From contig NZ_JACTAB010000001.1 in assembly GCF_014486695.1 (NCBI RefSeq), forward strand, positions 840,173 to 904,172: DNA of 64,000 bases. Reading direction: 5' to 3'. Origin of the DNA: Flavobacterium buctense (GTDB lineage: Bacteria > Bacteroidota > Bacteroidia > Flavobacteriales > Flavobacteriaceae). Under the pieces are notes generated by a model, which was given only the letters and a program-made list of their open reading frames with translations, did no database searches and had not been told where the DNA came from. This document shows, one piece after another, positions 1-59,048 of this stretch. Positions within the stretch are counted from its first letter, which is position 1; each line of letters begins with the position of its first letter. The translations under genes and the position numbers were made by a program.

Positions 1-1158
1 CACAATTGGGGTTGGCAAAAACAATACAACTATTCGGAGCAAGATTCGACTAAAATTTGGGCCGATTACCAAAAGCTGTTTCACGACTTAATTCCGAAAA
101 CTTTAGACGGTTTATTAGCTAAAAACGAGAACCGTTATTGGCCGTCATCGCCTTCTATTGGTTGGGGAAGAAAGGAAAGTTTACTTAGTGGCGATGCCCA
201 TTATTGGGGCGTTTGGTGGGGAATGGAACCGTTTGAGATGTATCAAAAAAAAGTCGGACGTTTTATGAGTGAATATGGTTTTCAAAGCATGCCGGATATT
301 AAGACGTTTCAGGCTTTCGCCCAAAGTGACGAACTCAACTTTAATTCGGAAGCGGTCAAAAATCACCAAAAACACCCAACGGGTTACAAAACCATCAACG
401 AGTATATGGCGCGAGATTACCAAGTGCCAACGAATTTTGAAGACTATATTTACGTTTCCCAAGTACTTCAAGCCGAAGGCATGAAAATCGCTATTGAGGC
501 CCATCGAACCGACCCAAAATGCATGGGAACTTTATTTTGGCAAGGCAATGATTGTTGGCCCGTGACTTCCTGGAGTTCGGTGGATTATTATGGAAGATGG
601 AAAGCTTTTCAATACCAGGCGAAGCGAAGTTTTGAGGATTTGTTGATTTCCATTAAGGAAAATGAAGTCAATTATGAAATTTATTTGGTTAGTGAAGCTT
701 CTCACTCCGACAAAGTAAGGTTTGAAATTGAATTATTGGATTTTTACGGAAAGCTAGTGGAAAAAGATGAAGTAGAATTTGATATTACGGCCGATACAAG
801 AGATTTGTTTGTAGCGCTTCCAAAAGAGAATTACAGCGATAATAATTTAAAGGAGTTAGTCTTGTCGGTATCTTGTATATTACAAAATGGTAAAAAAGCA
901 AATGCGCTATATTACTTTGTCAAATCCAAAGACTTACAATTAACCAAACCCAAGATTCAAATTACCAAGCTTGATGAGCAGACTTATGAAATATTTTCTG
1001 ATGTCTTGGCCAAAAATGTTTTTCTATCTTCGGAAGAAGAGACTTTTTTTAGTGATAATTATTTTGATATTTTGCCGGGACAAAAAGTGGAAATTAAATT
1101 GTCTAAACCGGTGAAAGAGGTTCGTGTAAAATCGCTTTTTGAGGTTATTAAAAACTGA
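1..1158 (+). CDS. Beta-mannosidase (GH2), C-terminal part, cut by window start
   Basis: The reading frame is open from base 1, so this is the C-terminal 385 residues of a longer protein; the 5' end lies outside the window. Glycoside hydrolase family 2 beta-mannosidases release terminal beta-mannose from oligosaccharides. The segment with GDAHYWGVWWG (about residues 64-74) followed by FMSEYGFQSMP is typical of that family. Glu91 of this fragment, in SEYG, matches the usual nucleophile position. The distal part is the Ig-like C-terminal region. The internal Met at base 223 is not a plausible start because the catalytic domain extends upstream of it. Family call is firm; exact substrate is inferred. 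Confidence 0.9.
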   Translation, partial: HNWGWQKQYNYSEQDSTKIWADYQKLFHDLIPKTLDGLLAKNENRYWPSSPSIGWGRKESLLSGDAHYWGVWWGMEPFEMYQKKVGRFMSEYGFQSMPDIKTFQAFAQSDELNFNSEAVKNHQKHPTGYKTINEYMARDYQVPTNFEDYIYVSQVLQAEGMKIAIEAHRTDPKCMGTLFWQGNDCWPVTSWSSVDYYGRWKAFQYQAKRSFEDLLISIKENEVNYEIYLVSEASHSDKVRFEIELLDFYGKLVEKDEVEFDITADTRDLFVALPKENYSDNNLKELVLSVSCILQNGKKANALYYFVKSKDLQLTKPKIQITKLDEQTYEIFSDVLAKNVFLSSEEETFFSDNYFDILPGQKVEIKLSKPVKEVRVKSLFEVIKN

Positions 1159-1181
1159 TTTTGAAAAAGACAAAACCTAAA

Positions 1182-1288
1182 TAGCCCCGATAGTAATGAA
1201 AACAAAAATGTCCCGATTTATCGGGACATTTTGTTGTAATGTATAGCGGGAAAATGGATTGCAAAAATGCCCAAGCCATTCGCTCCTT
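1182..1288 (-). repeat. Dispersed stem-loop repeat, copy A
   Basis: On the minus strand it begins GGAGCGAATGGCTTGGGC, has CCCGCT in the middle and ends ATCGGGGCTA. These ends are shared with copies at 13962, 18877, 38140, 58989 and 63803. The central stem (ATGTCCCGA / TCGGGACAT) is unrelated in sequence to the central stems of the other copies. It sits between two convergent genes. Confidence 0.8.
1205..1232. terminator. Hairpin between convergent genes (core of repeat copy A)
   Basis: A 12-bp perfect stem AAAATGTCCCGA / TCGGGACATTTT with a TTTA loop is flanked by A and T runs on both sides, so it could terminate transcription from either direction. It is also the variable core of the dispersed repeat, so a terminator role is inferred. 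Confidence 0.6.
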
Positions 1289-1291
1289 ATT

Positions 1292-1906
1292 TTAAAACAA
1301 CCCGTTAATCTCCGCGTCAATTCTATTAATAATCATTCCTAAATCCTCCGGATTGTTTACAAAATCAACATTATCAACATCAATAATCAATAATTTTCCT
1401 TTGTCGTAAGTCGTAATCCAAGCTTCGTAGCGCTCGTTCAATCGGCTCAAATAGTCAATGGAAATAGTGTTTTCGTAATCGCGACCGCGTTTGTGAATTT
1501 GGGAAACCAAATTAGGAATGGAACTTCTCAAATAAATCAACAAATCAGGCGCGCCAACTAAACCTTCCATCAATTCAAAAAGTGAAGTATAATTTTGGAA
1601 ATCACGGTTGGTCATTAAGCCCATCGCATGTAAGTTGGGTGCAAAAATATGTGCGTCTTCATAAATCGTTCGATCCTGAATGATATTTTTGCCGCTTTCG
1701 CGAATTTGTAATACTTGACGAAAACGCGAATTCAAGAAATAAATTTGCAAGTTAAAACTCCAGCGTTCCATTTGGTGATAGAAATCATCCAAATACGGAT
1801 TGTCAACCACATCTTCAAAATGAGGTTCCCACTTGAAATGTTTGGCTAAAAATCGGGTTAAAGTAGTCTTTCCTGCTCCTATATTTCCTGCTACTGCTAT
1901 GTGCAT
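1292..1906 (-). CDS. Deoxynucleoside kinase (deoxyadenosine/deoxyguanosine kinase type)
   Basis: A 204-residue cytoplasmic kinase of the dNK family, which phosphorylates deoxynucleosides for salvage of dNTP precursors. The P-loop GNIGAGKTT is at residues 7-15. The DRTIYED motif (residues 78-84) carries the DR(S/T) and acidic residues of the family, and an ERxx-containing helix follows EDVVDNPY. Length is normal for bacterial dAK/dGK. Its start codon overlaps the stop of the upstream gene by one base (TAATG), so the two are probably translationally coupled. The substrate (dA, dG or other) cannot be told from sequence alone. Confidence 0.9.
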   Translation of the reverse strand: MHIAVAGNIGAGKTTLTRFLAKHFKWEPHFEDVVDNPYLDDFYHQMERWSFNLQIYFLNSRFRQVLQIRESGKNIIQDRTIYEDAHIFAPNLHAMGLMTNRDFQNYTSLFELMEGLVGAPDLLIYLRSSIPNLVSQIHKRGRDYENTISIDYLSRLNERYEAWITTYDKGKLLIIDVDNVDFVNNPEDLGMIINRIDAEINGLF

Positions 1907-2700
1907 TATGGTAGTTTTATTTTAAAATTCTTAATTTGTTGGTTGGTAAAAATAGCTAAAATTTGGTCTTTGTAATAAAAATTTTGGAACGATTTCTCAA
2001 CAATGTCGATTTCGAAAACGGTTTTCGTTTGATTGTTCAGGCAGTAGAGCGTATTGTCTTGTAAAAACAATAATTGATCACGGTCAATAATCTGGATTTT
2101 TTCAAAAGGCGGAAGGTTAGCCAACAAAGTCACTTTGCCAAAAATATCAATCGCATACCAGTTGTTGATTTCATCAATCCAATAAAAAGTATTAAAATCC
2201 GTTTGGGTGTATTTGATATTTTCTGCAATCGGATTGCCAATGTTTTTAGACGTGTTCTTCAAGTAATCAAATAAAAGAATTTGTTGGGTTAAAGCATTGT
2301 AAATCCATAATTGATTTTGTGATGCCATGCCTATTTTAGAAGCGAAAATGGTATTGTCAATTTCAAAAAAATTGAGTTTTTGGATTTCATTTAATTGGTT
2401 ATCAAGCGTAATAAGGGTATTGAAATCTTCATAGAAAAGGACAATTTTCAGTGGATTAACATAATCAACCGAAGTAATTTTCCCCAAAGCCACATTTTTA
2501 TATTCCCAGGTTTGAACTTTATCCTGCTTGATGAAAACATTGTTTTTAAGGTAGTATTTGTTGCCCAATCCATCAAAGCCCAAATAGATTTTGTCTTCTA
2601 CTATTTCAGTATCAATGACAGTTGTTTTGAGTTTTGGATTTTGTCCAAAACCATGGGCAGAGATGACTAGTAATAGAAGATAAAATGTCTTTTTCATCAT
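1906..2700 (-). CDS. Hypothetical secreted protein upstream of deoxynucleoside kinase
   Basis: 264 residues starting MMKKTFYLLLLVISAHGFGQ, a signal peptide likely cleaved after GFGQ. The mature part is rich in short beta-strand-like repeats with aromatic and Asn residues, suggesting a beta-propeller or beta-sandwich, but no catalytic motif is visible. It reads into the kinase gene through a TAATG overlap. A second Met at residue 2 is an equally possible start. The family is not recognised with certainty; similar proteins sit next to dNK genes in flavobacteria (from memory). Confidence 0.75.
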   Translation of the reverse strand: MMKKTFYLLLLVISAHGFGQNPKLKTTVIDTEIVEDKIYLGFDGLGNKYYLKNNVFIKQDKVQTWEYKNVALGKITSVDYVNPLKIVLFYEDFNTLITLDNQLNEIQKLNFFEIDNTIFASKIGMASQNQLWIYNALTQQILLFDYLKNTSKNIGNPIAENIKYTQTDFNTFYWIDEINNWYAIDIFGKVTLLANLPPFEKIQIIDRDQLLFLQDNTLYCLNNQTKTVFEIDIVEKSFQNFYYKDQILAIFTNQQIKNFKIKLP

Positions 2701-2820
2701 AAGGCTAATTTACGGTAAACCAAATTAATTTAATGAAGTCTTACCTAATATTTTAACAAAAGATTGGTAACAGATTTCGATTACTATCGTCATATTTGTT
2801 GTATCCAAAAACCTAAAACA

Positions 2821-3714
2821 ATGAAAAAAATAGTATTCGCTTCGTTTTTAGTATTCTCTTATTTAGCTACCCATGCCCAAAAAGACTTTCAAGGGATGGC
2901 CGTTTACGAATCAAAAACCAGTACTGCCGATTTCAAATCCCGTTTTGAAGGCAACAGAGAAATTACTCCCGAAATGCAGAAAATGATTGAAGAGCGCATG
3001 AAAAAAATGTTTGAAAAGACTTTTTTTCTAAACTTCGACAAATCGGCTTCCATTTATAAAGAAGAAGAAAAGCTTGATGCTCCGGGCCAAGGTGGTGGTG
3101 GCATGAGAATGATGGCTTCCTTTATGGGCGGCGGCGGAACGTATTATAAAAATGTAAAGGACAAAACGTATAAGGTCGATAAAGAATTTATGGGCAAAGA
3201 GTTTTTGGTGAAAGATTCTTTGAAAACCTATAATTGGCAAATGAGTAGTGAAACCCGAGTGATTGGAGGTTATAATTGTTTCAAAGCTACTGCTGTAATT
3301 CCGGCAAGTAAAACGGATTTTAGAAATTTCCGCCCTAAAAAAGAAGAAGAAAAAAAAGACGATAAAGCTAAAGAAGAAACCAAAGAAGGTGCCAAAACAA
3401 GTTTTATGGATCAAATTGAGTTACCGAAAGAAATAACAATTACGGCTTGGTACACTCCGGAAATTCCGGTAAGTCAAGGTCCGGAAGGGTATTGGGGTTT
3501 ACCCGGATTAATTTTGGAAGTCAATGATGGAAAAACCACCATTCTTTGTTCTAAAATTGTTTTAAATCCAAAAGAAAAAGCTGAAATCAAAGCGCCAAGC
3601 AACGGCAAAGAAGTGACACAAAAGGAGTATGACGAAATCGTAACTAAAAAAATGGAAGAGATGAGCGAGATGAATAATGGACGTGGCGGCTTCCAAATGA
3701 GAATGAGTAGATAA
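2821..3714 (+). CDS. GLPGLI family secreted protein 1
   Basis: 297 residues from the ATG at 2821, chosen because it begins a clear signal peptide (MKKIVFASFLVFSYLATHAQ); an in-frame Met at 2764 would place extra charged residues before it. The defining GLPGLILEVNDG motif is near residue 225, preceded by the ITAWYTPEIPVSQGPEGYWG block. A Lys/Glu-rich insert (about residues 170-195) gives a low-complexity stretch. GLPGLI proteins are envelope proteins of unknown biochemical role, often encoded beside large beta-barrel proteins, as here. It is paralogous to the next gene. Confidence 0.88.
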   Translation: MKKIVFASFLVFSYLATHAQKDFQGMAVYESKTSTADFKSRFEGNREITPEMQKMIEERMKKMFEKTFFLNFDKSASIYKEEEKLDAPGQGGGGMRMMASFMGGGGTYYKNVKDKTYKVDKEFMGKEFLVKDSLKTYNWQMSSETRVIGGYNCFKATAVIPASKTDFRNFRPKKEEEKKDDKAKEETKEGAKTSFMDQIELPKEITITAWYTPEIPVSQGPEGYWGLPGLILEVNDGKTTILCSKIVLNPKEKAEIKAPSNGKEVTQKEYDEIVTKKMEEMSEMNNGRGGFQMRMSR

Positions 3715-7692: not shown

Positions 7693-8943
<1,251 letters not shown>

Positions 8944-8999: not shown

Positions 9000-9068
9000 G
9001 CTAAAGGAGAGTTTCTGCTTTAGCATTTTTTTACGAGGTTGCAATCAGTTCAAATTTTTCCTCTCATT
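9000..9068 (-). promoter_or_regulatory. SAM-II-like riboswitch candidate upstream of metK
   Basis: Read on the minus strand: GAGG (9060-9063), then a U/A-rich loop containing TTTGAACTGATTGCAA, then CCTC (9035-9038) closing a 4-bp stem, then GTAAAAAAATGCTAAAG. The order stem, loop with TTGCAA, stem, A-rich tail with GCTAAA resembles the SAM-II (metA) aptamer as I remember it; the stem is short. The tail GCTAAAG (9018-9024) can instead pair with CTTTAGC (9000-9006), an exclusive alternative fold. The predicted transcript start is only a few bases upstream. Motif assignment is from memory and needs a covariance-model search. Confidence 0.6.
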
Positions 9069-9077
9069 TTTCGAGTG

Positions 9078-9213: not shown

Positions 9214-9245
9214 TTTGGTCAATTGAAAAAACATTCAGAAGTTTG
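9214..9245 (+). promoter_or_regulatory. Candidate promoter of the metY leader region
   Basis: TTTG (9214-9217), a 20-base spacer and GAAGTTTG (9238-9245) fit the -33/-7 pattern with mismatch at the first -7 base and N positions otherwise free. It would start transcription near 9252, just ahead of the first leader peptide. Confidence 0.45.
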
Positions 9246-9268
9246 CTCCATCAAATAACAACAAGAAA

Positions 9269-9337
9269 ATGAAATTAATTATTTGCAATATGTGTCGCAT
9301 GATGTGGAAATCTCCGCAGAGGACGCTTATGGCATAA
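9269..9337 (+). CDS. Met/Cys-rich leader peptide 1 of the metY attenuator
   Basis: A 22-codon ORF, MKLIICNMCRMM followed by WKSPQRTLMA. Residues 6-12 are Cys-Asn-Met-Cys-Arg-Met-Met: five of seven codons need charged Cys or Met tRNA. Codons 16-19 contain GCAGAGG (9316-9322), which is identical to the 3' arm of the terminator at 9362 and can pair with its 5' arm CCTCTGC (9365-9371). A ribosome stalled at codons 6-12 leaves 9316-9322 free (antitermination); one that reaches the stop covers it (termination). The mechanism is inferred from this geometry by analogy with classical amino-acid operon attenuators. Too short for standard gene finders. Confidence 0.75.
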   Translation: MKLIICNMCRMMWKSPQRTLMA

Positions 9338-9361
9338 TTTTAAATTTAAAATATATCCATC

Positions 9362-9392
9362 AAACCTCTGCCAACAGCAGAGGTTTTTTTTT
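9362..9392 (+). terminator. Attenuator terminator 1 (upstream of metY)
   Basis: A 10-bp perfect stem AAACCTCTGC / GCAGAGGTTT with a CAACA loop is followed by a run of T to 9391. Its 5' arm has an alternative partner, GCAGAGG at 9316-9322 inside leader peptide 1. Confidence 0.88.
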
Positions 9393-9467
9393 ACTCTGAA
9401 TTTAGTTCAGAGTCTAATGAAAAGTAAAAACAATAATTTAAAACAGATGCTGAAACGAGTTCAGCAT
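9393..9467 (+). promoter_or_regulatory. Two short hairpins between attenuators 1 and 2
   Basis: Two 8-bp perfect stems, ACTCTGAA/TTCAGAGT (9393-9413) and ATGCTGAA/TTCAGCAT (9447-9467), each with a 5-base loop. They share the CTGAA...TTCAG core, so arms could also cross-pair. The second ends 6 bases before leader 2 starts and might influence its translation or act as a pause site; that role is speculation. Confidence 0.5.
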
Positions 9468-9473
9468 AAAACA

Positions 9474-9575
9474 ATGAAAGTAACAGCAAAAAATATGATG
9501 ATGAACAACCGTATGATGCACGTGATGATGTGTTGTTGTATCGACATACCCTGTTACCAAAAGCGAAAGACGTAA
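9474..9575 (+). CDS. Met/Cys-rich leader peptide 2 of the metY attenuator
   Basis: A 33-codon ORF with eight Met and four Cys: Met at 1, 8-10, 14, 15, 18 and 19, and Cys at 20-22 and 27. The segment MMHVMMCCC (14-22) is a strong stall site under Met or Cys starvation. Codons 27-30 contain TTACCAAAAG (9554-9563), fully complementary over 10 bases to CTTTTGGTAA (9605-9614) in the 5' half of the next terminator. A ribosome stopped at the CCC codons (9531-9539) would leave this segment free; one reaching the stop at 9573-9575 would cover it. The design repeats that of leader 1 with unrelated sequence. Mechanism inferred. Confidence 0.82.
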   Translation: MKVTAKNMMMNNRMMHVMMCCCIDIPCYQKRKT

Positions 9576-9598
9576 TCAAAGTTTATATACTTGTTCTT

Positions 9599-9637
9599 AA
9601 AGTCCTTTTGGTAAGCCATCCAAAAGGACTTTTTTTA
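9599..9637 (+). terminator. Attenuator terminator 2 (immediately before metY)
   Basis: A 13-bp perfect stem AAAGTCCTTTTGG / CCAAAAGGACTTT with an 8-base loop is followed by a T run. It lies 49 bases before the metY start. Its 5' arm can pair instead with TTACCAAAAG in leader peptide 2. Confidence 0.9.
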
Positions 9638-9685
9638 TTTCCAAAAATTAATAATCTAAATAGCTAACAATTAAATTTTAAAATC

Positions 9686-10978
9686 ATGAGCACACAAAAA
9701 TTCGCAACAAACGCCTTACACGCAGGACACGACGTTACTAAAAACGCAGGAACCAGAGCCGTTCCGATTTACCAAACGACTTCGTATGTATTCAACAATT
9801 CTGACCACGCAGCCAATCTTTTTGGTCTAGCCGAAGCCGGATTCATTTACACTCGATTAAACAATCCAACCAACGACATTTTGGAACAACGCTTAGCCGC
9901 ACTCGAAGGCGGAATCGGAGCCGTGGTTACCGCTTCTGGAACTGCAGCAATTGCTACGAGTTTATTGGTTTTGCTAAAAGCGGGTGACCACATCGTAGCC
10001 TCCAACAGTCTTTACGGCGGAACTTACAACTTGTTGAGTGTAACCTTACCAAGATTAGGCATCACCACCACTTTCGTAGATCCGTCTAATCCTGAAAACT
10101 TTACCAAAGCCGCCCAAGAAAATACCAGAGCTTTTTTCGCAGAAAGTTTGGGCAACCCTAAACTAGATGTGCTGGATTTGAAAGCAATTTCCAAAGAAGC
10201 CAAAGGGTTTAAAGTGCCTTTCATTGTGGACAACACAGTCGCTACGCCTTATTTGTTAAACCCAATTCAACATGGTGCTGATATTGTCATTCACTCGCTA
10301 ACCAAATACATTACCGGAAACGGAACTTCACTTGGCGGTGTAATCATCGATGCCGGAAACTTTGACTGGAGCAACGGGAAATTCCCTGAATTTACCGAAC
10401 CATCAGCCGGTTACCACGGTTTGAAATACTATGAAGCTTTGGGCGCAGCGTCATTCATCGCCAAAGTAAGAATTGAAGGTTTGCGCGATTTCGGTTCATC
10501 TTTAAGTCCATTTAACGCCTTCCAAACGATTCAAGGGTTGGAAACTTTGGAAATCAGAATTAAAAAACACAGCGAAAATGCTTTGGCCTTAGCCCAATGG
10601 TTGCAAACCCAAGAAGAAGTAGCATGGGTAAATTATCCCGGATTAGAAACTTCTAAATACAAAGCTCTAGCCGATGAATATCTACCGGAAGGCAAAAGTG
10701 GCATCGTAACTTTCGGTCTGAAAGGTGGCTTTGAAGCAGCCAAGAAAGTAGCTGATGAGACTAAATTATTCTCGTTGTTAGCCAACATTGGTGACACTAA
10801 ATCCTTAATCATCCATCCGGCAAGCACGACGCACCAACAATTATCTGACGCCGAACAAGAGTCAACCGGAGTAACCAAAGACTTAATCCGTTTATCCGTT
10901 GGTTTAGAAAATATCGACGACTTGAAAGCCGATTTGAAAGAAGCCTTTGTAAAAATTAAAACCCCACAAACCGTATAA
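9686..10978 (+). CDS. metY: O-acetylhomoserine sulfhydrylase (Cys/Met metabolism PLP enzyme)
   Basis: 430 residues of the Cys/Met metabolism PLP family, fold type I. The PLP lysine is Lys207 in SLTKYITGNGTSLGG. The N-terminal TNALHAGHDVTKNAGTRAVP block and the length (about 430, longer than the about 390 of cystathionine gamma-synthases) fit O-acetylhomoserine aminocarboxypropyltransferase, which makes homocysteine directly from O-acetylhomoserine and sulfide. metX downstream supplies O-acetylhomoserine. Two Met/Cys leader-peptide attenuators precede it. The OsmC-like gene starts 2 bases after its stop. Distinction from cystathionine gamma-synthase rests on length and context. Confidence 0.93.
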   Translation: MSTQKFATNALHAGHDVTKNAGTRAVPIYQTTSYVFNNSDHAANLFGLAEAGFIYTRLNNPTNDILEQRLAALEGGIGAVVTASGTAAIATSLLVLLKAGDHIVASNSLYGGTYNLLSVTLPRLGITTTFVDPSNPENFTKAAQENTRAFFAESLGNPKLDVLDLKAISKEAKGFKVPFIVDNTVATPYLLNPIQHGADIVIHSLTKYITGNGTSLGGVIIDAGNFDWSNGKFPEFTEPSAGYHGLKYYEALGAASFIAKVRIEGLRDFGSSLSPFNAFQTIQGLETLEIRIKKHSENALALAQWLQTQEEVAWVNYPGLETSKYKALADEYLPEGKSGIVTFGLKGGFEAAKKVADETKLFSLLANIGDTKSLIIHPASTTHQQLSDAEQESTGVTKDLIRLSVGLENIDDLKADLKEAFVKIKTPQTV

Positions 10979-10979
10979 C

Positions 10980-11441
10980 ATGAGCACAAAAACCGTAAAC
11001 ATAGTTGGTTATGCCAAAGAAAGCAATCAATTCGTAGTCAAAGCCCAAAACTTCGACATCAGAATTAGTAAAAATGATCAATTTCCTGAACTAGAAGGAC
11101 CAAGTCCGATAGAATACATTTTGGCCGGTTATGCCGGTTGCATCAATGCTGTCGGGAAATTGGTAGCCAAAGAAAAAGGCATCGATTTAAAATCACTTCA
11201 AGTTGAAATCTCGGGAACCTTAAGTTTAGACAAATACCAGGGAAAAATTAGCGATGAAAGAGCCGGATTTAAATCTATTGAAGTTACGGTAAAGCCAACA
11301 ACTGATGCGACTTTGGACCAATTAAAGGATTGGTTAATCACCGTTGAAAACCGTTGCCCGGTTCAGGACAATTTGATCAATCCAACGCCGGTTTCTGTAG
11401 TGTTGGTTAAAGAATATGAAGCTACAGCAACAACGCTTTAA
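10980..11441 (+). CDS. OsmC family protein
   Basis: 153 residues. The GPSPIEYILAGYAGCINAVGK segment (about residues 40-60) carries the first OsmC cysteine, and NRCPVQDNL (about 122-130) the second. OsmC proteins are cytoplasmic thiol peroxidases or related hydroperoxide-handling proteins. It is co-transcribed with metY (1 base between stop and start), a pairing seen in other Bacteroidota from memory; a sulfur-linked role is inferred from the position only. Confidence 0.88.
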   Translation: MSTKTVNIVGYAKESNQFVVKAQNFDIRISKNDQFPELEGPSPIEYILAGYAGCINAVGKLVAKEKGIDLKSLQVEISGTLSLDKYQGKISDERAGFKSIEVTVKPTTDATLDQLKDWLITVENRCPVQDNLINPTPVSVVLVKEYEATATTL

Positions 11442-11588: not shown

Positions 11589-12590
11589 ATGAAAAAGTTG
11601 GAAAAAATAGTTTTGTTCAATTTTAGTTTGGAAAACGGAAAACAACGCCCTTATCTTCCGTTATTTTATCAAACTTTTGGTCAGCCCATTAGTACCGCGC
11701 CGGTCGTGGTAGTCAATCACGCATTAACAGGCAATTCCAATGTCACCGGAGAAAACGGCTGGTGGAACGATATAATCGGTGAAGAAAAAATCATCGATAC
11801 CAATCATTTCACGGTAATCGCTTTCAACATTCCGGGAAACGGTTACGATGACAACTTCGGTAATTTGATTTCCACTTACAAAGATTTTACCATTCGCGAT
11901 GTCGCCAGAATTTTTTGGGAAGGTTTAGATTTCCTCAAAATCGAACAAGTTTTTGCGGTTATCGGAGGAAGTTTAGGCGGAGCAGTTGCGTGGGAAATGG
12001 CGGTTTTGAAACCGAATGCTGTTCAAAATCTAATTCCAATTGCCACCGATTGGAAAGCCACCGATTGGGTCATCGCCAATGTCCTAATCCAAGACCAAGT
12101 ATTGAATAATTCTGATGATCCAATCGCAGATGCCAGATTGCACGCTATGTTGTTGTATCGAACACCTCAATCGATTAACCAACGTTTTCAAAGAAGCAAA
12201 TTCAATGATTCCTCAGTGTTTCAAATCGAGAATTGGTTGGCCAATCACGGCGTAAAACTCAAAAACCGCTTTCGGTTATCGGCTTACAAATTGATGAACC
12301 ACTTGCTCAAAACCAATGACATTACTCGTGACCGAAATGATTTTTTGGCTCTAGCCAAAGCCATTCAAGGAAACATTCACGTAGTCGCTGTTGATACTGA
12401 TTATTTTTTTATTCCGGATGAAAATCGGGAAACGGTTGAAAACTTAAAACCGATAAAAGAAAATGTCTTCTATCACGAAATAAAATCCATCCACGGACAC
12501 GATGCTTTTTTAATCGAATTCGAACAATTAGCCCAAATTTTATCACCCATTTTTAACAAACAAAAACAACAAACTTATGTCAGCGCTTAG
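11589..12590 (+). CDS. metX: Homoserine O-acetyltransferase-like alpha/beta hydrolase
   Basis: 333 residues. The nucleophile elbow GGSLGG places Ser128; VNHALTGNS (about 42-50) forms the oxyanion region, and HGHDAFLIE near residue 308 supplies the catalytic His. This is the MetX pattern: acetyl transfer from acetyl-CoA to homoserine, the first committed step to methionine. It is slightly shorter than many MetX (about 350-380). The downstream homoserine dehydrogenase overlaps it by 14 bases, so production and acetylation of homoserine are coupled. Acyl specificity (acetyl versus succinyl) is inferred from the MetY context. Confidence 0.9.
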   Translation: MKKLEKIVLFNFSLENGKQRPYLPLFYQTFGQPISTAPVVVVNHALTGNSNVTGENGWWNDIIGEEKIIDTNHFTVIAFNIPGNGYDDNFGNLISTYKDFTIRDVARIFWEGLDFLKIEQVFAVIGGSLGGAVAWEMAVLKPNAVQNLIPIATDWKATDWVIANVLIQDQVLNNSDDPIADARLHAMLLYRTPQSINQRFQRSKFNDSSVFQIENWLANHGVKLKNRFRLSAYKLMNHLLKTNDITRDRNDFLALAKAIQGNIHVVAVDTDYFFIPDENRETVENLKPIKENVFYHEIKSIHGHDAFLIEFEQLAQILSPIFNKQKQQTYVSA

Positions 12591-13677
12591 AATCAATATA
12601 GTCCTTTTCGGTATCGGAAATGTCGGTAGTACTTTAGTCAACCAAGTTATTGAAAGTCAAAAATTCTTCCTTGAGAAGAAGAATATCGATTTGAGATTTC
12701 CCATCATCACCAATTCCACTTTAGCTTTCTTCGAAAAAGACGGTCTCAAAAACCAATGGGAAGCCAATTTCGCCCAATCCGCCATTCCGTTCAGAATCGA
12801 AGACATCATCGAATATGTTCAAGAACAACAATTGGAAAACCTGATTGCTGTGGATGCCACTGCCAGTCAGGACATCATCAAAAATTATATTCCGCTTATC
12901 CAAAACGGTTTCAATATCGTCGCCGCCAATAAAAAAGCGAATACATTGCACTTCGACTTCTACAAAGAACTGAGAAGAAACCTCAAGAAACACGACAAAA
13001 CATTTCTTTACGAAACCAATGTCGGAGCCGGTTTACCGGTCGTTCAAACAATAAACGACTTGCACTTTTCGGGCGAAGAAATCACTAAAATCCGTGGCGT
13101 ATTCTCGGGTTCGCTGAGTTATATCTTTAATAGATTTTCTTCCGAAGACTTACCGTTTTCCAAAATCTTACTCGATGCGGAGAAAAACGGCTATACCGAA
13201 CCCGATTCCCGTGATGATTTATCCGGACACGACGTCGCCAGAAAACTATTGATTCTCGCCCGAGAAATCGAACAGGAATTTGAATTCACCGATATCAAAA
13301 TAGAATCCCTTTTGCTTCCAAACCTAAATGAAAAAAGCGCCAAATCGGAATATGCAGTCAACAAGCAATTGTTTGACAAACCGTTCCAAATTGCCAAAAT
13401 TACCCAAGCCGATAACCATGTCTTGCGCTATGTGGGCGAATTAGATGTCAAGACCAAGCAACTAGAAGTAAAACTGATTTCAGTTCCGAAGACTTCAGCG
13501 CTTGGCCAACTCAAAGGCGCCGACAATCTTATTGAAATTTACACCAAATCCTATGGCGAAATCCCAATCGTCATTCAAGGCGCCGGAGCCGGAAAACAGG
13601 TTACGGCTCGTGGCGTTTTGACTGATATTCTCAAAGTCGCCGAGAAAATCAAAATCAAAGAAGCGATTTGGTTATAA
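12577..13677 (+). CDS. Homoserine dehydrogenase (ThrA C-terminal-like)
   Basis: 366 residues. The Rossmann motif VLFGIGNVGSTL is at 9-20, NKKAN about 115-119, and the SGSLSYIFNRF and SRDDLSGHDVARKLLILARE blocks are the catalytic-domain signatures of homoserine dehydrogenases (aspartate semialdehyde to homoserine). It has no aspartate-kinase domain, unlike ThrA, and no obvious ACT domain. It overlaps metX by 14 bases, so it feeds methionine synthesis specifically. Normal length for the single-domain enzyme. Confidence 0.9.
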   Translation: MSALRINIVLFGIGNVGSTLVNQVIESQKFFLEKKNIDLRFPIITNSTLAFFEKDGLKNQWEANFAQSAIPFRIEDIIEYVQEQQLENLIAVDATASQDIIKNYIPLIQNGFNIVAANKKANTLHFDFYKELRRNLKKHDKTFLYETNVGAGLPVVQTINDLHFSGEEITKIRGVFSGSLSYIFNRFSSEDLPFSKILLDAEKNGYTEPDSRDDLSGHDVARKLLILAREIEQEFEFTDIKIESLLLPNLNEKSAKSEYAVNKQLFDKPFQIAKITQADNHVLRYVGELDVKTKQLEVKLISVPKTSALGQLKGADNLIEIYTKSYGEIPIVIQGAGAGKQVTARGVLTDILKVAEKIKIKEAIWL

Positions 13678-13792: not shown

Positions 13793-13815
13793 CAGCGTTC
13801 ATAAACTTATTGTTC

Positions 13816-13916
13816 GTTATCACGAAAGCTGGAGGGAATAGACCCGTTGAAAGCTTAGCAACCCTTTGCCAAAAGAAGGTGCTACATTCTATCTCGATTT
13901 ATCGAGAGCAGATAAC
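13816..13916 (+). promoter_or_regulatory. SAM-I (S-box) riboswitch upstream of metH
   Basis: P1 is GTTATC (13816-13821) with GATAAC (13911-13916). Between them are the conserved S-box landmarks in order: GCTGGAGGGAATAGACCCG (kink-turn and P2), TTGAAAGCTTAGCAACC, AAGGTGCTACATTC, and a P4 hairpin TCTCGAT/ATCGAGA. The element binds SAM and normally lowers expression of methionine genes when SAM is abundant. No obvious intrinsic terminator follows, so the expression platform may act through the downstream leader or translation. Small ORFs through it are not genes. Confidence 0.93.
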
Positions 13917-13961
13917 CCCGAGAATTCTTCTCACTTTCACGATAACATACTATAATTTTTT

Positions 13962-14074: not shown

Positions 14075-14104
14075 GCAACTTTGCAACTTTGCGACTTTGC
14101 AACT
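14075..14104 (+). repeat. 8-bp tandem array before metH
   Basis: Three and three-quarter units: GCAACTTT, GCAACTTT, GCGACTTT, GCAACT. It ends 10 bases before the metH start codon. Confidence 0.75.
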
Positions 14105-14114
14105 CGAAAAAGAC

Positions 14115-15101
14115 ATGTCAAAAATTCAAGACGCCATCAAAGAAAGAATTCTCGTTCTCGACGGTGCGATGGGAACCATGCTGCAGCGCAACAACTTCTC
14201 CGAAGAAGACTTCCGAGGCGAGCGTTTCAAAGATTTTCCACATCCGCTAAAAGGCAACAACGATTTGCTTTCCATCACCCAACCCGAAGCGGTAAAACAA
14301 GTTCATCGCTTGTATTTTCAAGCCGGAGCAGATATTGTTGAAACGAATACATTCTCAGGAACCACCATCGGGATGGCCGATTACCACTTAGAAGATTTGG
14401 TTTACGAACTCAACTACCAATCCGCCAAAATAGCCAGAGAAGTCGCCGACGAATTCACCGACAGACCGCGTTTCGTAGCCGGTTCCATCGGACCAACGAA
14501 CAGAACAGCAAGTATGTCACCGGACGTAAATGATCCTGGATTTAGAGCCGTAACTTTTGACGATTTACGCATCGCCTACAAACAACAAGTAGAAGCTTTG
14601 ATTGATGGTGGTTGCGATGTTTTATTGGTAGAAACTATTTTTGATACACTTAACGCCAAAGCCGCTTTATTCGCCATAGAAGAAGTAAAAGAAGAACGCA
14701 ATCTCGATATACCCGTAATGGTGTCAGGAACAATAACCGATGCGTCAGGAAGAACTTTATCAGGTCAAACGGTAGAAGCGTTTTTAATTTCAATTCAGCA
14801 TATCGATTTGTTGAGTGTTGGATTTAATTGTGCACTCGGAGCCGACCAATTGAAACCTTATTTAAAAAGATTAGCCCACAACACCACTTTAAATATTTCA
14901 GCACATCCAAACGCCGGTTTACCCAACGCTTTTGGGCAATACGACCAAACACCGGAGGAAATGCAAGCACTTATTAAAGAATATTTACAAGACAATTTAG
15001 TCAACATCATTGGCGGTTGTTGCGGTACGACTCCGGAACATATTAAGGCTATTGCTGATGTAGCCAAAGATTTCCAACCACGTTCATTAGAATTAACATA
15101 A
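14115..15101 (+). CDS. metH: Methionine synthase, homocysteine-binding subunit (split MetH, N-terminal part)
   Basis: 328 residues from ATG 14115 ([17 protein letters not shown]); an upstream in-frame TTG is less likely because it falls in the tandem repeat. This is the homocysteine S-methyltransferase domain: [10 protein letters not shown] at the start, GFNCALGAD with the first zinc Cys, and [10 protein letters not shown] with the other two. It binds homocysteine-zinc and needs the cobalamin part encoded by the next gene. The split into two polypeptides recurs in Bacteroidota (from memory), and both halves are complete, so I do not read it as a frameshift. Controlled by the SAM-I riboswitch. 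Confidence 0.93.
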
Positions 15102-15139
15102 AAAATTATTTGTGCATTCGTGGCAAAAACAAAACAATA

Positions 15140-17812
15140 ATGTCAGAAACAAAATATTTAAAATTATCCGGATTAGAACCGCTAATCGTTACGCCAGAAA
15201 GTAATTTCATCAACGTAGGCGAACGAACCAACGTAACCGGTTCGCGTAAATTCCTCCGTTTAATCAAAGAAGAGAATTACAACGAAGCCCTAACCGTAGC
15301 GAGAGACCAAGTAGAAGGAGGAGCGCAAATCATCGACGTCAATATGGACGAAGGAATGTTGGATGGTGTTTACGCCATGACCAAATTCCTAAACCTAATC
15401 GCCGCCGAACCCGATATCGCTCGTGTACCGGTCATGATTGACAGCTCCAAATGGGAAATCATCGAAGCCGGTTTGAAAGTCGTGCAAGGTAAAGGTGTAG
15501 TGAATTCTATCTCACTTAAAGAAGGAAAAGAAGCGTTCATTCATCACGCCAAATTGATTAAAAGATACGGCGCAGCAGTAATCGTAATGGCTTTCGACGA
15601 AGAAGGTCAAGCCGATAACTACGACAGAAGAATTGAAATCTGTAAACGTTCGTATGATATTTTAGTGAATGAAGTCCATTTTCCTGCAGAAGACATCATC
15701 TTCGACCCGAATATTTTCCCTGTCGCCACCGGAATGGAAGAACACAAACTAAACGCATTAGACTTTTTCAGAGCGACCAAATGGATTCGTGAAAACTTGC
15801 CTTATGCCGGAGTTTCAGGTGGTGTGAGTAACGTTTCGTTTTCGTTTCGTGGGAATGACAAAGTGCGCGAAGCAATGCATTCGGCTTTTCTTTATCATGC
15901 CATTAAAAACGGCATGACGATGGGCATCGTAAATCCGGAAATGCTCGAGATTTATGATGAAATCGATCCAATTTTATTGGAACATGTAGAAGATGTTTTA
16001 TTGAACAGAAGAGAAGATGCTACCGAAAGATTATTGGATTTGGCTGAAAGTTTCAAAGGCGATTTCAAAACCAATGAAAAGGCGATTCAAGAATGGAGAA
16101 ACGGTTCAGTGCAAGACCGATTAACCCATTCGTTAGTCAAAGGAATTGACGAATTTATAGAGATTGATGTCGAAGAAGCACGACAATTAGCCGAAAAACC
16201 CATCGAAGTCATTGAAGTCAATTTGATGGCCGGAATGAATGTCGTAGGTGATTTATTCGGAAGCGGAAAAATGTTCTTGCCACAAGTAGTCAAATCGGCA
16301 CGAGTGATGAAAAAAGCCGTGGCCTATTTACTACCTTATATAGAAGCTTCGAAAGACGGAAAATCTTCCTCAGCCGGAAAAGTGTTGATGGCAACGGTAA
16401 AAGGTGATGTACACGACATTGGTAAAAATATAGTAGCGGTAGTTCTAGGTTGCAACAACTTCGAAATTATCGATTTAGGCGTAATGGTACCGCCGGAAAA
16501 AATCATTGAAGCTGCAGTTCGTGAAAACGTAGACATCATTGGTTTAAGCGGATTGATTACGCCGTCATTAGACGAAATGGTGTATTTGGCCAAAGAAATG
16601 GACAAACTCAACATCAAAATTCCGGTAATGATTGGCGGTGCAACGACTTCGAGAGCGCATACGGCTGTAAAAATTGCCCCGGAATATAAAGAAACTGTCG
16701 TTCACGTAAACGATGCGTCGCGTGCGGTAACGGTTGCAAGTAACTTGCTTCAAGCGGAAACCAAAGTAGAATACGCCAAAACCGTTCGGGCAGAATATGA
16801 CAAACTCCGTGAAGGTTATTTAAATAGAAGCCGAGACAAAAATTACCATTCGATTGAAGATGCGCGTAAAAACAAATTACAATTGGATTGGAACAATTTC
16901 ACACCTGTAAAACCGAATTTTATCGGCACCAAAACCGTTACAGTGGAATTATCGGAACTGGTTGATTTTATTGACTGGACGCCGTTTTTCAGTTCGTGGG
17001 AATTGTTCGGGAAATATCCGGCGATTTTGACCGATGTGGTTGTAGGTGAACAAGCAACTTCGTTATTCGCAGACGCGCAAAATATGCTAAACCAAATCGT
17101 TTCCGAAAAGTGGTTAGTCGCTAAGGGAATTCTCGGGATTTATCCGGCAAACCAAGTCAATGATGACGATATTCAGGTTTCCGATGAAAGCGGAAAAGAC
17201 TTGGTGAAGTTCCTAACTTTAAGACAACAATCGCAAAAAACTGCAGGCGCACCTAACATCGCATTAGCCGATTTCGTAGCGCCAAAAGACAACGGAAAAC
17301 AAGATTATATTGGTTGTTTTTGTGTAACTACCGGATTTGGGGTCGATGAAAAAGCAACCGAATTCGAAAAACAATTAGACGATTACAACTCGATTTTAGT
17401 GAAAGCACTTGGTGACCGATTGGCCGAAGCTTTCGCAGAATATTTACACTTAAAAGTGCGTAAAGAAATTTGGGGCTACGCTTCCGATGAATCTTTATCA
17501 AACCAAGATTTGATTGACGAGGAATATAAAGGGATTCGTCCAGCGCCGGGTTATCCTGCGTGTCCTGATCATTTGGAAAAACCAACGATTTGGAAACTTT
17601 TAAATGTCGAACAAGAAATAGGCGTCAAACTGACTGAAAGCATGGCGATGTGGCCGGCTTCTTCGGTGTCGGGCTATTATTTTGCCAATCCGGAAAGTAA
17701 GTATTTCGGACTCGGAAAAATCAAAGAAGACCAAGTAATTGATTACGCCAAAAGAAGAGGAATTTCAACAGAACAAGCCACTAAGTGGTTAAGTCCAAAT
17801 ATAGCAGATTAA
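15140..17812 (+). CDS. metH: Methionine synthase, methyl-THF, cobalamin and activation domains (split MetH, C-terminal part)
   Basis: 890 residues from ATG 15140 ([15 protein letters not shown]). In order: pterin-binding domain with [12 protein letters not shown] (about 27-38), cap and cobalamin-binding domain with DVHDIGKN (about 426-433, the DxHxxG base-off ligand), and the SAM-dependent reactivation domain with [12 protein letters not shown] near residue 804. It moves the methyl group of 5-methyl-THF via B12 to homocysteine held by the preceding subunit. Length equals full MetH minus its first domain. The gap to metH-N is 38 bases. Confidence 0.95.
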
Positions 17813-38139: not shown

Positions 38140-38226
38140 GGAAGCTGTTTCCTGCTTTCCGTTGTAATCTTTTTAAATTTCCCTCCGGAAAATCTAAAAA
38201 GGATTTCCACTCCAATCAGGGCTAGG
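38140..38226 (+). repeat. Dispersed stem-loop repeat, copy D (degenerate)
   Basis: GGAAGCTG, CCTGCTTTCCG, a central stem TTTTTAAATTTCC / GGAAAATCTAAAAA and the end CCAATCAGGGCTA. Conserved ends carry changes (CAGGG for CGGGG), but order and pairing are kept. A pyrimidine-rich stretch (38247-38283) lies between it and kynU. Confidence 0.7.
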
Positions 38227-38307
38227 GTCAACTGCACATTAAAACTTTCCCCTTTTCCCTTTTTTCTTTCCCCTTTTTTTTACTTTTACGCCAAACTAAA
38301 CAACACT

Positions 38308-58983: not shown

Positions 58984-58988
58984 AGTCC

Positions 58989-59048
58989 TAGCCCGGATTG
59001 CAATGGAAATCCTCGAAGAGATTGGAATGGAAAGCCGGATTAAGCTCC
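58989..59048 (-). repeat. Dispersed stem-loop repeat, copy E (short)
   Basis: On the minus strand: GGAGCTTAATCCGGCTTTCC, a small stem AATCT/GGATT, and the end GCAATCCGGGCTA. The first conserved block is shortened, so it may be a truncated member. Confidence 0.65.

Follow-up and report, generated by a model that had tools for sequence, protein, structure and literature searches.

Putative attenuators in the metY leader

The leader of metY in a 64,000-nucleotide (nt) stretch of the Flavobacterium buctense genome (contig NZ_JACTAB010000001.1, positions 840,173 to 904,172; hereafter the window) very probably carries two methionine/cysteine (Met/Cys) leader-peptide attenuators in series, each with three mutually exclusive pairings, which are predicted to let RNA polymerase pass to metY only upon shortage of charged Met-tRNA or charged Cys-tRNA. 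The leader contains two short open reading frames (ORFs) with a bias towards Met and Cys codons, hairpin sequences with alternative pairings that covary among relatives, a fixed spacing between codons and pairing regions, and a single promoter motif. An earlier reading of this stretch, made from the sequence alone (hereafter the sequence-only reading), had proposed such an arrangement, and the codon richness, the covariation of the arms, the spacing and the promoter motif before unit 1 all bear it out.

Both short ORFs are located on the plus strand, in the intergenic stretch between metK and metY. In unit 1, the leader ORF1 (9269..9337; ATG at 9269, stop codon at 9335-9337) encodes the 22-codon peptide MKLIICNMCRMMWKSPQRTLMA, with Met or Cys at 6 of the 21 codons after the start. 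Region 1 (TGTGGA, 9303..9308) is embedded in Met-Trp codons and forms the protector helix (1:2) with TCCGCA at 9313-9318, which overlaps region 2, the 5' arm of the antiterminator (GCAGAGG, 9316..9322). Region 2 pairs with region 3 (CCTCTGC, 9365..9371), which is at once the 3' arm of the antiterminator (2:3) and part of the 5' arm of the terminator hairpin (3:4; 9362..9386, 10 base pairs (bp) and a loop of 5), followed by a run of T at 9384-9392. Unit 2 is built in the same manner: ORF2 (9474..9575; ATG at 9474, stop codon at 9573-9575) encodes the 33-codon peptide MKVTAKNMMMNNRMMHVMMCCCIDIPCYQKRKT, with 11 Met/Cys codons among the 32 after the start; region 1 (GTAACAG, 9480..9486) pairs with CTGTTAC at 9551-9557; region 2 (TTACCAAAAG, 9554..9563) pairs with region 3 (CTTTTGGTAA, 9605..9614), which again serves both the antiterminator and the terminator hairpin (9599..9632, 13 bp and a loop of 8), with a T run at 9630-9636. 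The frame of ORF2 contains two further in-frame ATG codons upstream; most relatives start at the equivalent of 9474, and a few earlier or later. Direct reading confirmed the two ORFs with their terminators and T runs that the sequence-only reading had described, as well as the second partner of each terminator 5' arm inside its own ORF; the protector pairings were absent from that account.

A scan of both strands of the window for a short ORF with at least six Met/Cys codons, a terminator and an alternative partner returned exactly these two units, and none in 10 dinucleotide-preserving shuffles. Partial matches elsewhere in the window to the models of the two units (R1 and R2, see below) score below 31 bits and were taken, without individual reading, as ordinary terminators. 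The energies calculated for the window are -6.1 kcal/mol for 1:2, -8.4 for 2:3 (-15.6 with inner pairs) and -14.2 for 3:4 in unit 1, and -3.0, -6.8 (-12.6 with inner pairs) and -17.6 kcal/mol, respectively, in unit 2.

Under the proposed mechanism, ample Met and Cys would allow the ribosome to reach the stop codon and cover region 2, so that the 3:4 terminator forms and transcription ends. A shortage of Met or Cys would instead arrest the ribosome at the Met/Cys codons, with its leading edge just before region 2 and with region 1 masked, and the 2:3 pairing would displace the terminator; in unit 1, with the Met codon at 9302 in the A site, region 2 would be free from 9316 onwards. A leader that is not translated at all would fold into the 1:2 protector, which would promote termination. 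With both terminators predicted on a single transcript, polymerase would have to pass the one and the other, and the two read-through decisions would multiply; such an AND of two sensors would reduce leak and sharpen the response. The response to starvation and the AND logic are what we infer from these sequences.

Between the two attenuators, two more hairpins are found at 9393-9413 (ACTCTGAA..TTCAGAGT) and 9447-9467 (ATGCTGAA..TTCAGCAT), neither of them with a T run on the plus strand; some relatives have similar sequences at the same place, and the second hairpin has no other copy in the window.

Occurrence of the units upstream of metY

The first set of loci consisted of the window and the best 80 of 502 metY relatives from a scan of genome contigs, each with 1400 nt of upstream sequence (less at contig ends). 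By script, all 81 metY loci carry at least one unit: both units were found in 50 loci, only unit 1 in 12 and only unit 2 in 19. Two of the 19 unit-2-only loci (L026 and L041) show unit 1 by eye; in L041, from F. psychrophilum, ORF1 lacks the usual stop codon and continues past the terminator. The unit-2-only class includes a johnsoniae-type group, and in three longer stretches from genomes of this type (L231, L235 and L238) unit 1 is located more than 3 kb upstream of unit 2. In L235, the one such johnsoniae-type stretch that was read, a gene for a TonB-dependent receptor (746-3592) lies between the two units, so that unit 1 would control an uptake gene there.

Several loci contain additional short ORFs. 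In 12 loci (L045, L046, L047, L050, L051, L053-L055, L061-L063 and L079), a 16-18 codon ORF ending in RRCCRMC[SC] occupies the place of unit 2 and has no terminator (in L045, it is located at -117 to -66 before metY); these ORFs might represent decayed units or a different kind of control. In L065 and L052, unit 2 and metY are separated by a small ORF (MRTLNSIAVEYLLR... in L065) located about 260 nt ahead of metY. Extra ORFs returned by a loose scan, inside or near metK in L060 and L085 and one each in L149 and L153, lack the arm motifs of the units and were not counted. Two contigs labelled as Bifidobacterium breve and Nitrotoga (L008 and L015) encode a metY 94% identical to that of the window, with the same attenuators, and are probably mis-binned Flavobacterium contigs.

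Among the leader peptides, the Met/Cys composition is kept and the sequence drifts. Met and Cys together account for 427 of 1446 codons in unit 1 (29.5%, n=70) and for 819 of 2169 in unit 2 (37.8%, n=79). Translation of the unit 1 antiterminator arm yields PQR or SAE depending on the species, with one frame used in 42 of 70 copies and another in 28, which indicates that it is the RNA arm that is kept. Alternatively, the ORF products might themselves function as small Met/Cys-rich proteins, e.g., in metal binding, and the hairpins might be ordinary terminators. Peptides of this composition can bind metals, and the ORFs are conserved as ORFs, but their composition is kept more than their sequence, the best-conserved segment of ORF1 occurs in two reading frames, region 3 remains paired, with covariation, to the arm in the ORF (just past the stop codon in L035-L038), and the identified downstream genes are mostly those of Met/Cys synthesis or sulphate uptake. 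This makes the small-protein explanation highly improbable.

Covariation of the pairing regions

The pairings were analyzed in alignments of 33 copies of unit 1 (29 de-duplicated and 4 added by hand) and 39 copies of unit 2. In unit 1, 98.0% of 204 alignment cells are paired in the antiterminator, with 6 double-changed cells and one position at which AU, CG, GU and GC all occur, and 98.1% of 323 cells in the terminator, with 18 double-changed; when the antiterminator registers were slid by 1-3 columns, at most 69.4% of the cells were paired. In unit 2, the respective values are 87.2% of 384 cells (6 double-changed) for the antiterminator and 97.8% of 505 (34 double-changed) for the terminator. 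For each of these four pairings, the percentage, the covariation score and the number of double-changed cells were reached by 0-2 of 500 shuffles. Two other measures are weaker: the number of pairs with a double change (see below) and the number of further pair types. The latter was reached by 37 (antiterminator) and 1 (terminator) of 500 shuffles in unit 1, and by 73 and 181, respectively, in unit 2. Outside the counted alignment, some unit 1 arms are rewired with the pairing kept, as in GCAAGGGC/GCCCTTGC (L168), GCGAAGGC/GCCTTTGC (L169) and CTGTAGGGG/CCTCTATAG (L174); in L170, the best partner found differs from the expected arm. In outgroup genera, the unit 2 pairing is extended on the other side, e.g., GCGGTATTGCC with GGCAATACCGC in L090. 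Two marks of an attenuator, a conserved, mutually exclusive antiterminator and an intrinsic terminator between the ORF and the gene, are both found in the sequences. Persistence of the Met/Cys codons and of the alternative pairing among relatives was the test that the sequence-only reading had set for itself, and the comparison bears it out.

An early idea that the units lack a 1:2 pairing was dropped once the protector helices were found. In the alignment of this part of unit 1, 93.3% of 180 protector cells are paired (none of 500 shuffles as high), with 5 double-changed cells (1 of 500 as high), compared with at most 66.0% in registers slid by 1-3 columns; the variants include TGTGTAAA/TTTACGCA (L044), TGTGTA/TACACA (L069) and CCGAG/CTCGG (L120). 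The protector of unit 2 is paired in 76.2% of 244 cells, with 29 double-changed cells and none of 500 shuffles as high, and is absent in some sequences. The best protector helix exceeds the mean of its own shuffles in 32 of 33 copies of unit 1 and 32 of 39 copies of unit 2; for the window itself, it was matched by 22 of 200 shuffles in unit 1 and by 2 of 200 in unit 2. With a supported 1:2 pairing in each, the two units resemble complete four-region attenuators, of which the protector is the least certain putative part.

Ribosome spacing and codon weighting

A ribosome extends about 15-16 nt from its P-site codon to its leading edge. In unit 1, the distance from the start of the last Met/Cys codon to region 2 is 13-15 nt in 68 of 70 copies and 17 and 20 nt in the other two; this count was limited to codons 12 nt or more upstream of the region, and only 10 of 429 are nearer or beyond. 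The stop codon follows region 2 by 0-15 nt. With this footprint, region 2 of unit 1 would stay just clear of a ribosome stalled at the last Met/Cys codon and would be covered by one that has reached the stop. The claim of the sequence-only reading that the partner lies just beyond the expected ribosome footprint at the Met/Cys codons and under it at the stop agrees with this spacing, which is conserved in unit 1 and looser in unit 2. In the latter, a distance of 12 nt or more upstream of region 2 is kept by 688 of 821 Met/Cys codons, and a Cys codon is often in contact with the region; in L035-L038, region 2 follows the stop codon and is outside the ORF.

Among the codons well upstream of region 2, the final Met/Cys codon is a Met codon in 63 of 70 copies of unit 1 and a Cys codon in 64 of 79 copies of unit 2, so that unit 1 is probably weighted towards Met and unit 2 towards Cys. 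Owing to their relatedness, the loci do not represent independent cases, and there is an even chance that both units sense the same mixed Met/Cys shortage, in which case the tandem would be a redundancy that tightens the shut-off, with no two-input gate. The difference in the last upstream codon speaks against such redundancy; in its favour, both ORFs hold both kinds of codons (267 Met and 160 Cys in 70 copies of unit 1, 470 Met and 349 Cys in 79 copies of unit 2), one unit suffices in many genomes, and unit 2 of L107 is nearly all Met. The two independent checkpoints of the sequence-only reading may be two similar sensors instead of two different inputs. As between a two-input gate and redundancy, we lean slightly towards overlapping sensors with different weights.

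Promoter and series arrangement

The predicted -7 box GAAGTTTG is located at 9238..9245 on the plus strand, with TTTG upstream at 9214-9217 (by eye), and the transcript would start near 9250. TAnnTTTG has been reported as the sigma-A -7 consensus in F. psychrophilum (PMC9723704); the box of the window is without the leading T of this consensus and fits the loose.A..TTTG motif only. At -41 to -24, the loose motif is present before ORF1 in 33 of 35 non-redundant loci and before ORF2 in 2 of 51 (1.3 and 1.4 in shuffles), and the stricter TA..TTT[GA] in 12 of 35 and 1 of 51, respectively. The presence of the motif before unit 1 and, apart from a few loci, not before unit 2 suggests that the units are arranged in series and that one transcript would cross both terminators. 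On the basis of this motif, placement of both units on one transcript is favoured for the window; the johnsoniae-type loci seem to differ.

Several observations weigh against the reading of the leader as two attenuators in series. When each unit is folded on its own, the minimum-energy structure contains the terminator; this is expected if no ribosome is present, and folding alone thus does not demonstrate switching. Pairs with a double change number only one of seven in the unit 1 antiterminator (309 of 500 shuffles as high) and two of ten in that of unit 2 (170 of 500), compared with 6 and 0 of 500 shuffles, respectively, that reach the values of the terminators; furthermore, the loci are related, so that the cells are not independent, and the shuffles leave this relatedness in place. 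The outer two pairs of the unit 2 antiterminator are broken in 13 and 14 of 39 copies. The protector is weak in individual sequences: no more than 15 of 33 copies of unit 1 and 18 of 39 of unit 2 have a helix that is matched by 10 or fewer of 200 shuffles. A ribosome stalled on the late Cys codons of unit 2 would already have passed region 1, which lies close to the start codon, such that the masking of this region is hard to explain. In unit 2, 133 of 821 Met/Cys codons fall inside region 2, downstream of it or less than 12 nt upstream, and a ribosome stalled there would cover the antiterminator. Finally, the johnsoniae-type loci carry a TTTGG...TACTTTTA-like sequence before unit 2, seemingly a promoter of its own (by eye), which, together with the 12 terminator-less loci, indicates that control in series is not universal.

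Distribution of the units and exchange with SAM-I

The SAM-I riboswitch senses S-adenosylmethionine (SAM) directly. In the family, 396 of 397 genomes have a match to metY, in many of them only to a distant relative (expectation value, E, about 1e-40). We analyzed 69 further upstream regions from the family, namely, 29 returned as loci and the 40 next listed matches, avoiding repeats of a genus where these were noticed, a sample biased to metY similar to that of the window. Directly before metY, 56 of these loci have SAM-I, 11 have attenuator units, none has both and two have neither (L125, with SAM-I about 1.36 kb upstream, and L153). The count of 11 is a lower bound because the search required the arm motifs and may have overlooked units with rewired arms, as in L168. 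For SAM-I, a regular expression matched only 30 of the 56 Rfam-positive loci and was replaced with a covariance model (R3).

In the 81-locus set, R3 returned 47 matches, all downstream of metY and none upstream, and a search of 9238-9640 of the window against Rfam yielded no family at gathering score, SAM-I and SAM-II included. Thus, even with SAM-II and SAM-I aptamers on either side of the operon (see below), it is exceedingly improbable that a metabolite riboswitch or a T-box regulates the operon and that the ORFs are incidental.

In a tree of 60 metY proteins (37 from attenuator loci and 23 from SAM-I loci), three changes between the two kinds of leader are needed and the well-supported branches force at least three, in an unrooted topology for which the bootstrap had not settled and which whole-locus transfer also fits.

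The unit 1 model R1 matched 20 of 249 family genomes at E < 1e-6, 7 of them sequences used to build the model; matches with E > 1e-5 were not counted as units. All 20 have a Met-rich leader (by script or by eye), and metY is the next gene in 17; the other three are L156 (unit 1, SAM-I and metX), L172 (metX) and L167 (both units followed by a transposase-like ORF, by eye). The unit 2 model R2 matched 15 of the 249 genomes at E < 1e-6. Both models matched at this level in 12 genomes, and a weak R1 match accompanies R2 in G022 and G224. At E <= 1e-5, R1 was found in 31 of 296 genomes drawn from the order, five of which are outside the family, two of these (L229 and L230) being false, and in 25 of 345 genomes drawn from the phylum, two of which are outside the order (L240 and L239). 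Rejected as false were L229 and L230 (family f11, E 4.5e-7 and 9.4e-7), matches at 50-52 bits to plain gene-end terminators with no Met/Cys leader.

Most of the identified genes downstream of the units are responsible for Met or Cys synthesis or sulphate uptake. In another family of the order (L226), two Cys-rich leaders precede in tandem an operon with cysH and cysD; Met-only leaders are found before metX in L156 and before a gene with 31% identity to metY in L224, and related units also precede metX in L172 and L227. In L240 (533-651), a Met/Cys leader lies before a sulphate transporter and is followed by a second short reading frame with five Cys codons. The targets not accounted for by Met/Cys synthesis are the TonB receptor of L235 and, in L196, L199 and L233, OsmC-like or unassigned genes that follow units. 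These targets bear on the possibility that the leaders sense a general slowing of translation, at initiation or elongation, and not Met/Cys charging. Any stall inside the ORF could expose region 2, but Met and Cys make up 29.5% and 37.8% of the leader codons, the identified downstream genes are mostly sulphur genes and the copy before cysH-cysD has Cys-rich leaders; we regard general slowing as quite unlikely.

Other matches are of a different character. L231 (7054-7365) and L236 (477-799) match both unit models before metX and have leaders poor in Met and Cys, which may therefore be decayed or sense something else. A leader for metX composed of an attenuator followed by SAM-I was considered for L231, L232 and L236-L238 and rejected because a small ORF intervenes in the two read in detail, L231 and L236, and the riboswitch may have its own promoter; in L156, where unit 1 is followed by SAM-I and metX, there may be control in series. 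In L239 (about 552-660, reversed strand), a short ORF with THMHWHH precedes a hisG-looking gene (by eye) and is probably the leader of a His attenuator in another family.

Taken together, a broader reading can be proposed, under which the units would belong to a modular family of sulphur attenuators in Flavobacteriales, occurring singly or paired before metY, metX, cysH-cysD and sulphate uptake genes and swapping with SAM-I at the same promoter, and the pair would form a two-input gate in which unit 1 senses Met-tRNA, unit 2 senses Cys-tRNA and both must open. We hold this reading tentatively, as possible but somewhat short of an even chance.

Genomic context in the window

The metY gene (9686..10978, plus strand) encodes a protein of the O-acetylhomoserine sulfhydrylase family (NCBIfam TIGR01326, 641.8 bits versus a cut-off of 495.1) that is 96% identical to MetY of F. 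sedimenticola. It is followed on the same strand by genes for an OsmC-like protein (10980..11441; 51 bits, under the family cut-off of 95), a metX-like acyltransferase (11589..12590; TIGR01392, 191.2 bits, under the cut-off of 500) and a homoserine dehydrogenase-like protein (12577..13677; scores under the cut-offs). Divergent from metY is metK (7693-8943, minus strand; TIGR01034). The Rfam search identified a SAM-II aptamer before metK (9010-9069, minus strand) and a SAM-I aptamer before metH (13814-13918, plus strand), so that three classes of RNA control, SAM-II, SAM-I and the putative attenuators, are associated with methionine genes within 5 kb. The metH gene (14097-17812) appears as two separate ORFs, the first of which matches only the first 320-340 of the approximately 1200 positions of the methionine synthase models. 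Three copies of the Flavo-1 RNA motif are present in the window (1179-1257, 38144-38227 and 58986-59045).

Comparison with known systems

As in the trp and his attenuators, the leader ORF is rich in the regulated amino acids, 1:2, 2:3 and 3:4 pairings are present and the terminator is intrinsic; unlike those, the metY leader has two complete units in series, the antiterminator arm is inside the ORF and the amino acids are Met and Cys. The closest known system is the mgtCBR leader of Salmonella, whose tandem leader attenuators (mgtM and mgtP) are described in PMC3641672: as predicted for metY, two short leader ORFs are placed there on one leader mRNA, each as part of an attenuator, and one of the mgtCBR ORFs responds to charged tRNA(Pro). 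According to the same source, however, mgtM responds to ATP, the signals are additive, the host is proteobacterial and the operon is one of Mg2+/virulence. In the metY leader, by contrast, Met/Cys codons are present in both ORFs, both terminator sequences are of the intrinsic type with T runs and the operon is one of methionine synthesis.

In the actinobacterial cys operons, the sulphur genes are likewise preceded by a short ORF that contains consecutive Cys codons, but the account of these leaders in PMC1262725 reports no conserved terminator hairpins and no conserved RNA structure before methionine operons. The transcriptome study of F. psychrophilum, a member of the same genus, describes structured 5' regions and "strong clues" for leader-peptide attenuation before amino-acid operons (PMC9723704); metY and methionine are absent from its main text. 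Available accounts further mention methionine feedback through the 5' untranslated region of the Xanthomonas met operon, the pseudoknot motif SAM-V preceding metY in Pelagibacter and, in general terms, leader-like small ORFs in B. thetaiotaomicron. SAM-I (RF00162), which in related genera occupies the same place before the same gene and is likewise an RNA control of Met synthesis, was never found there together with the attenuators in the loci analyzed and, unlike them, needs no leader ORF. The sequence-only reading had known of no described Met/Cys tandem attenuator in Bacteroidota, and none was found in the open-licence text of PubMed Central (subscription papers and supplements being outside this search); tandem leader attenuators as such are known, from mgtCBR.

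Implications

If the attenuator reading is correct, Bacteroidota would gain control of sulphur amino acids by tRNA charging, in a genome that also has SAM-I and SAM-II aptamers within 5 kb, and with tandem units found repeatedly across one genus and its relatives. As one codon set is weighted towards Met and the other towards Cys, the logic of the gate can be tested directly. The repeated exchange with SAM-I at orthologous metY genes also opens to testing the standing question of why charged tRNA would be sensed instead of the end metabolite. Should the units indeed form a modular family, this would be an operon that visibly switches between the sensing of SAM and the sensing of tRNA charging.

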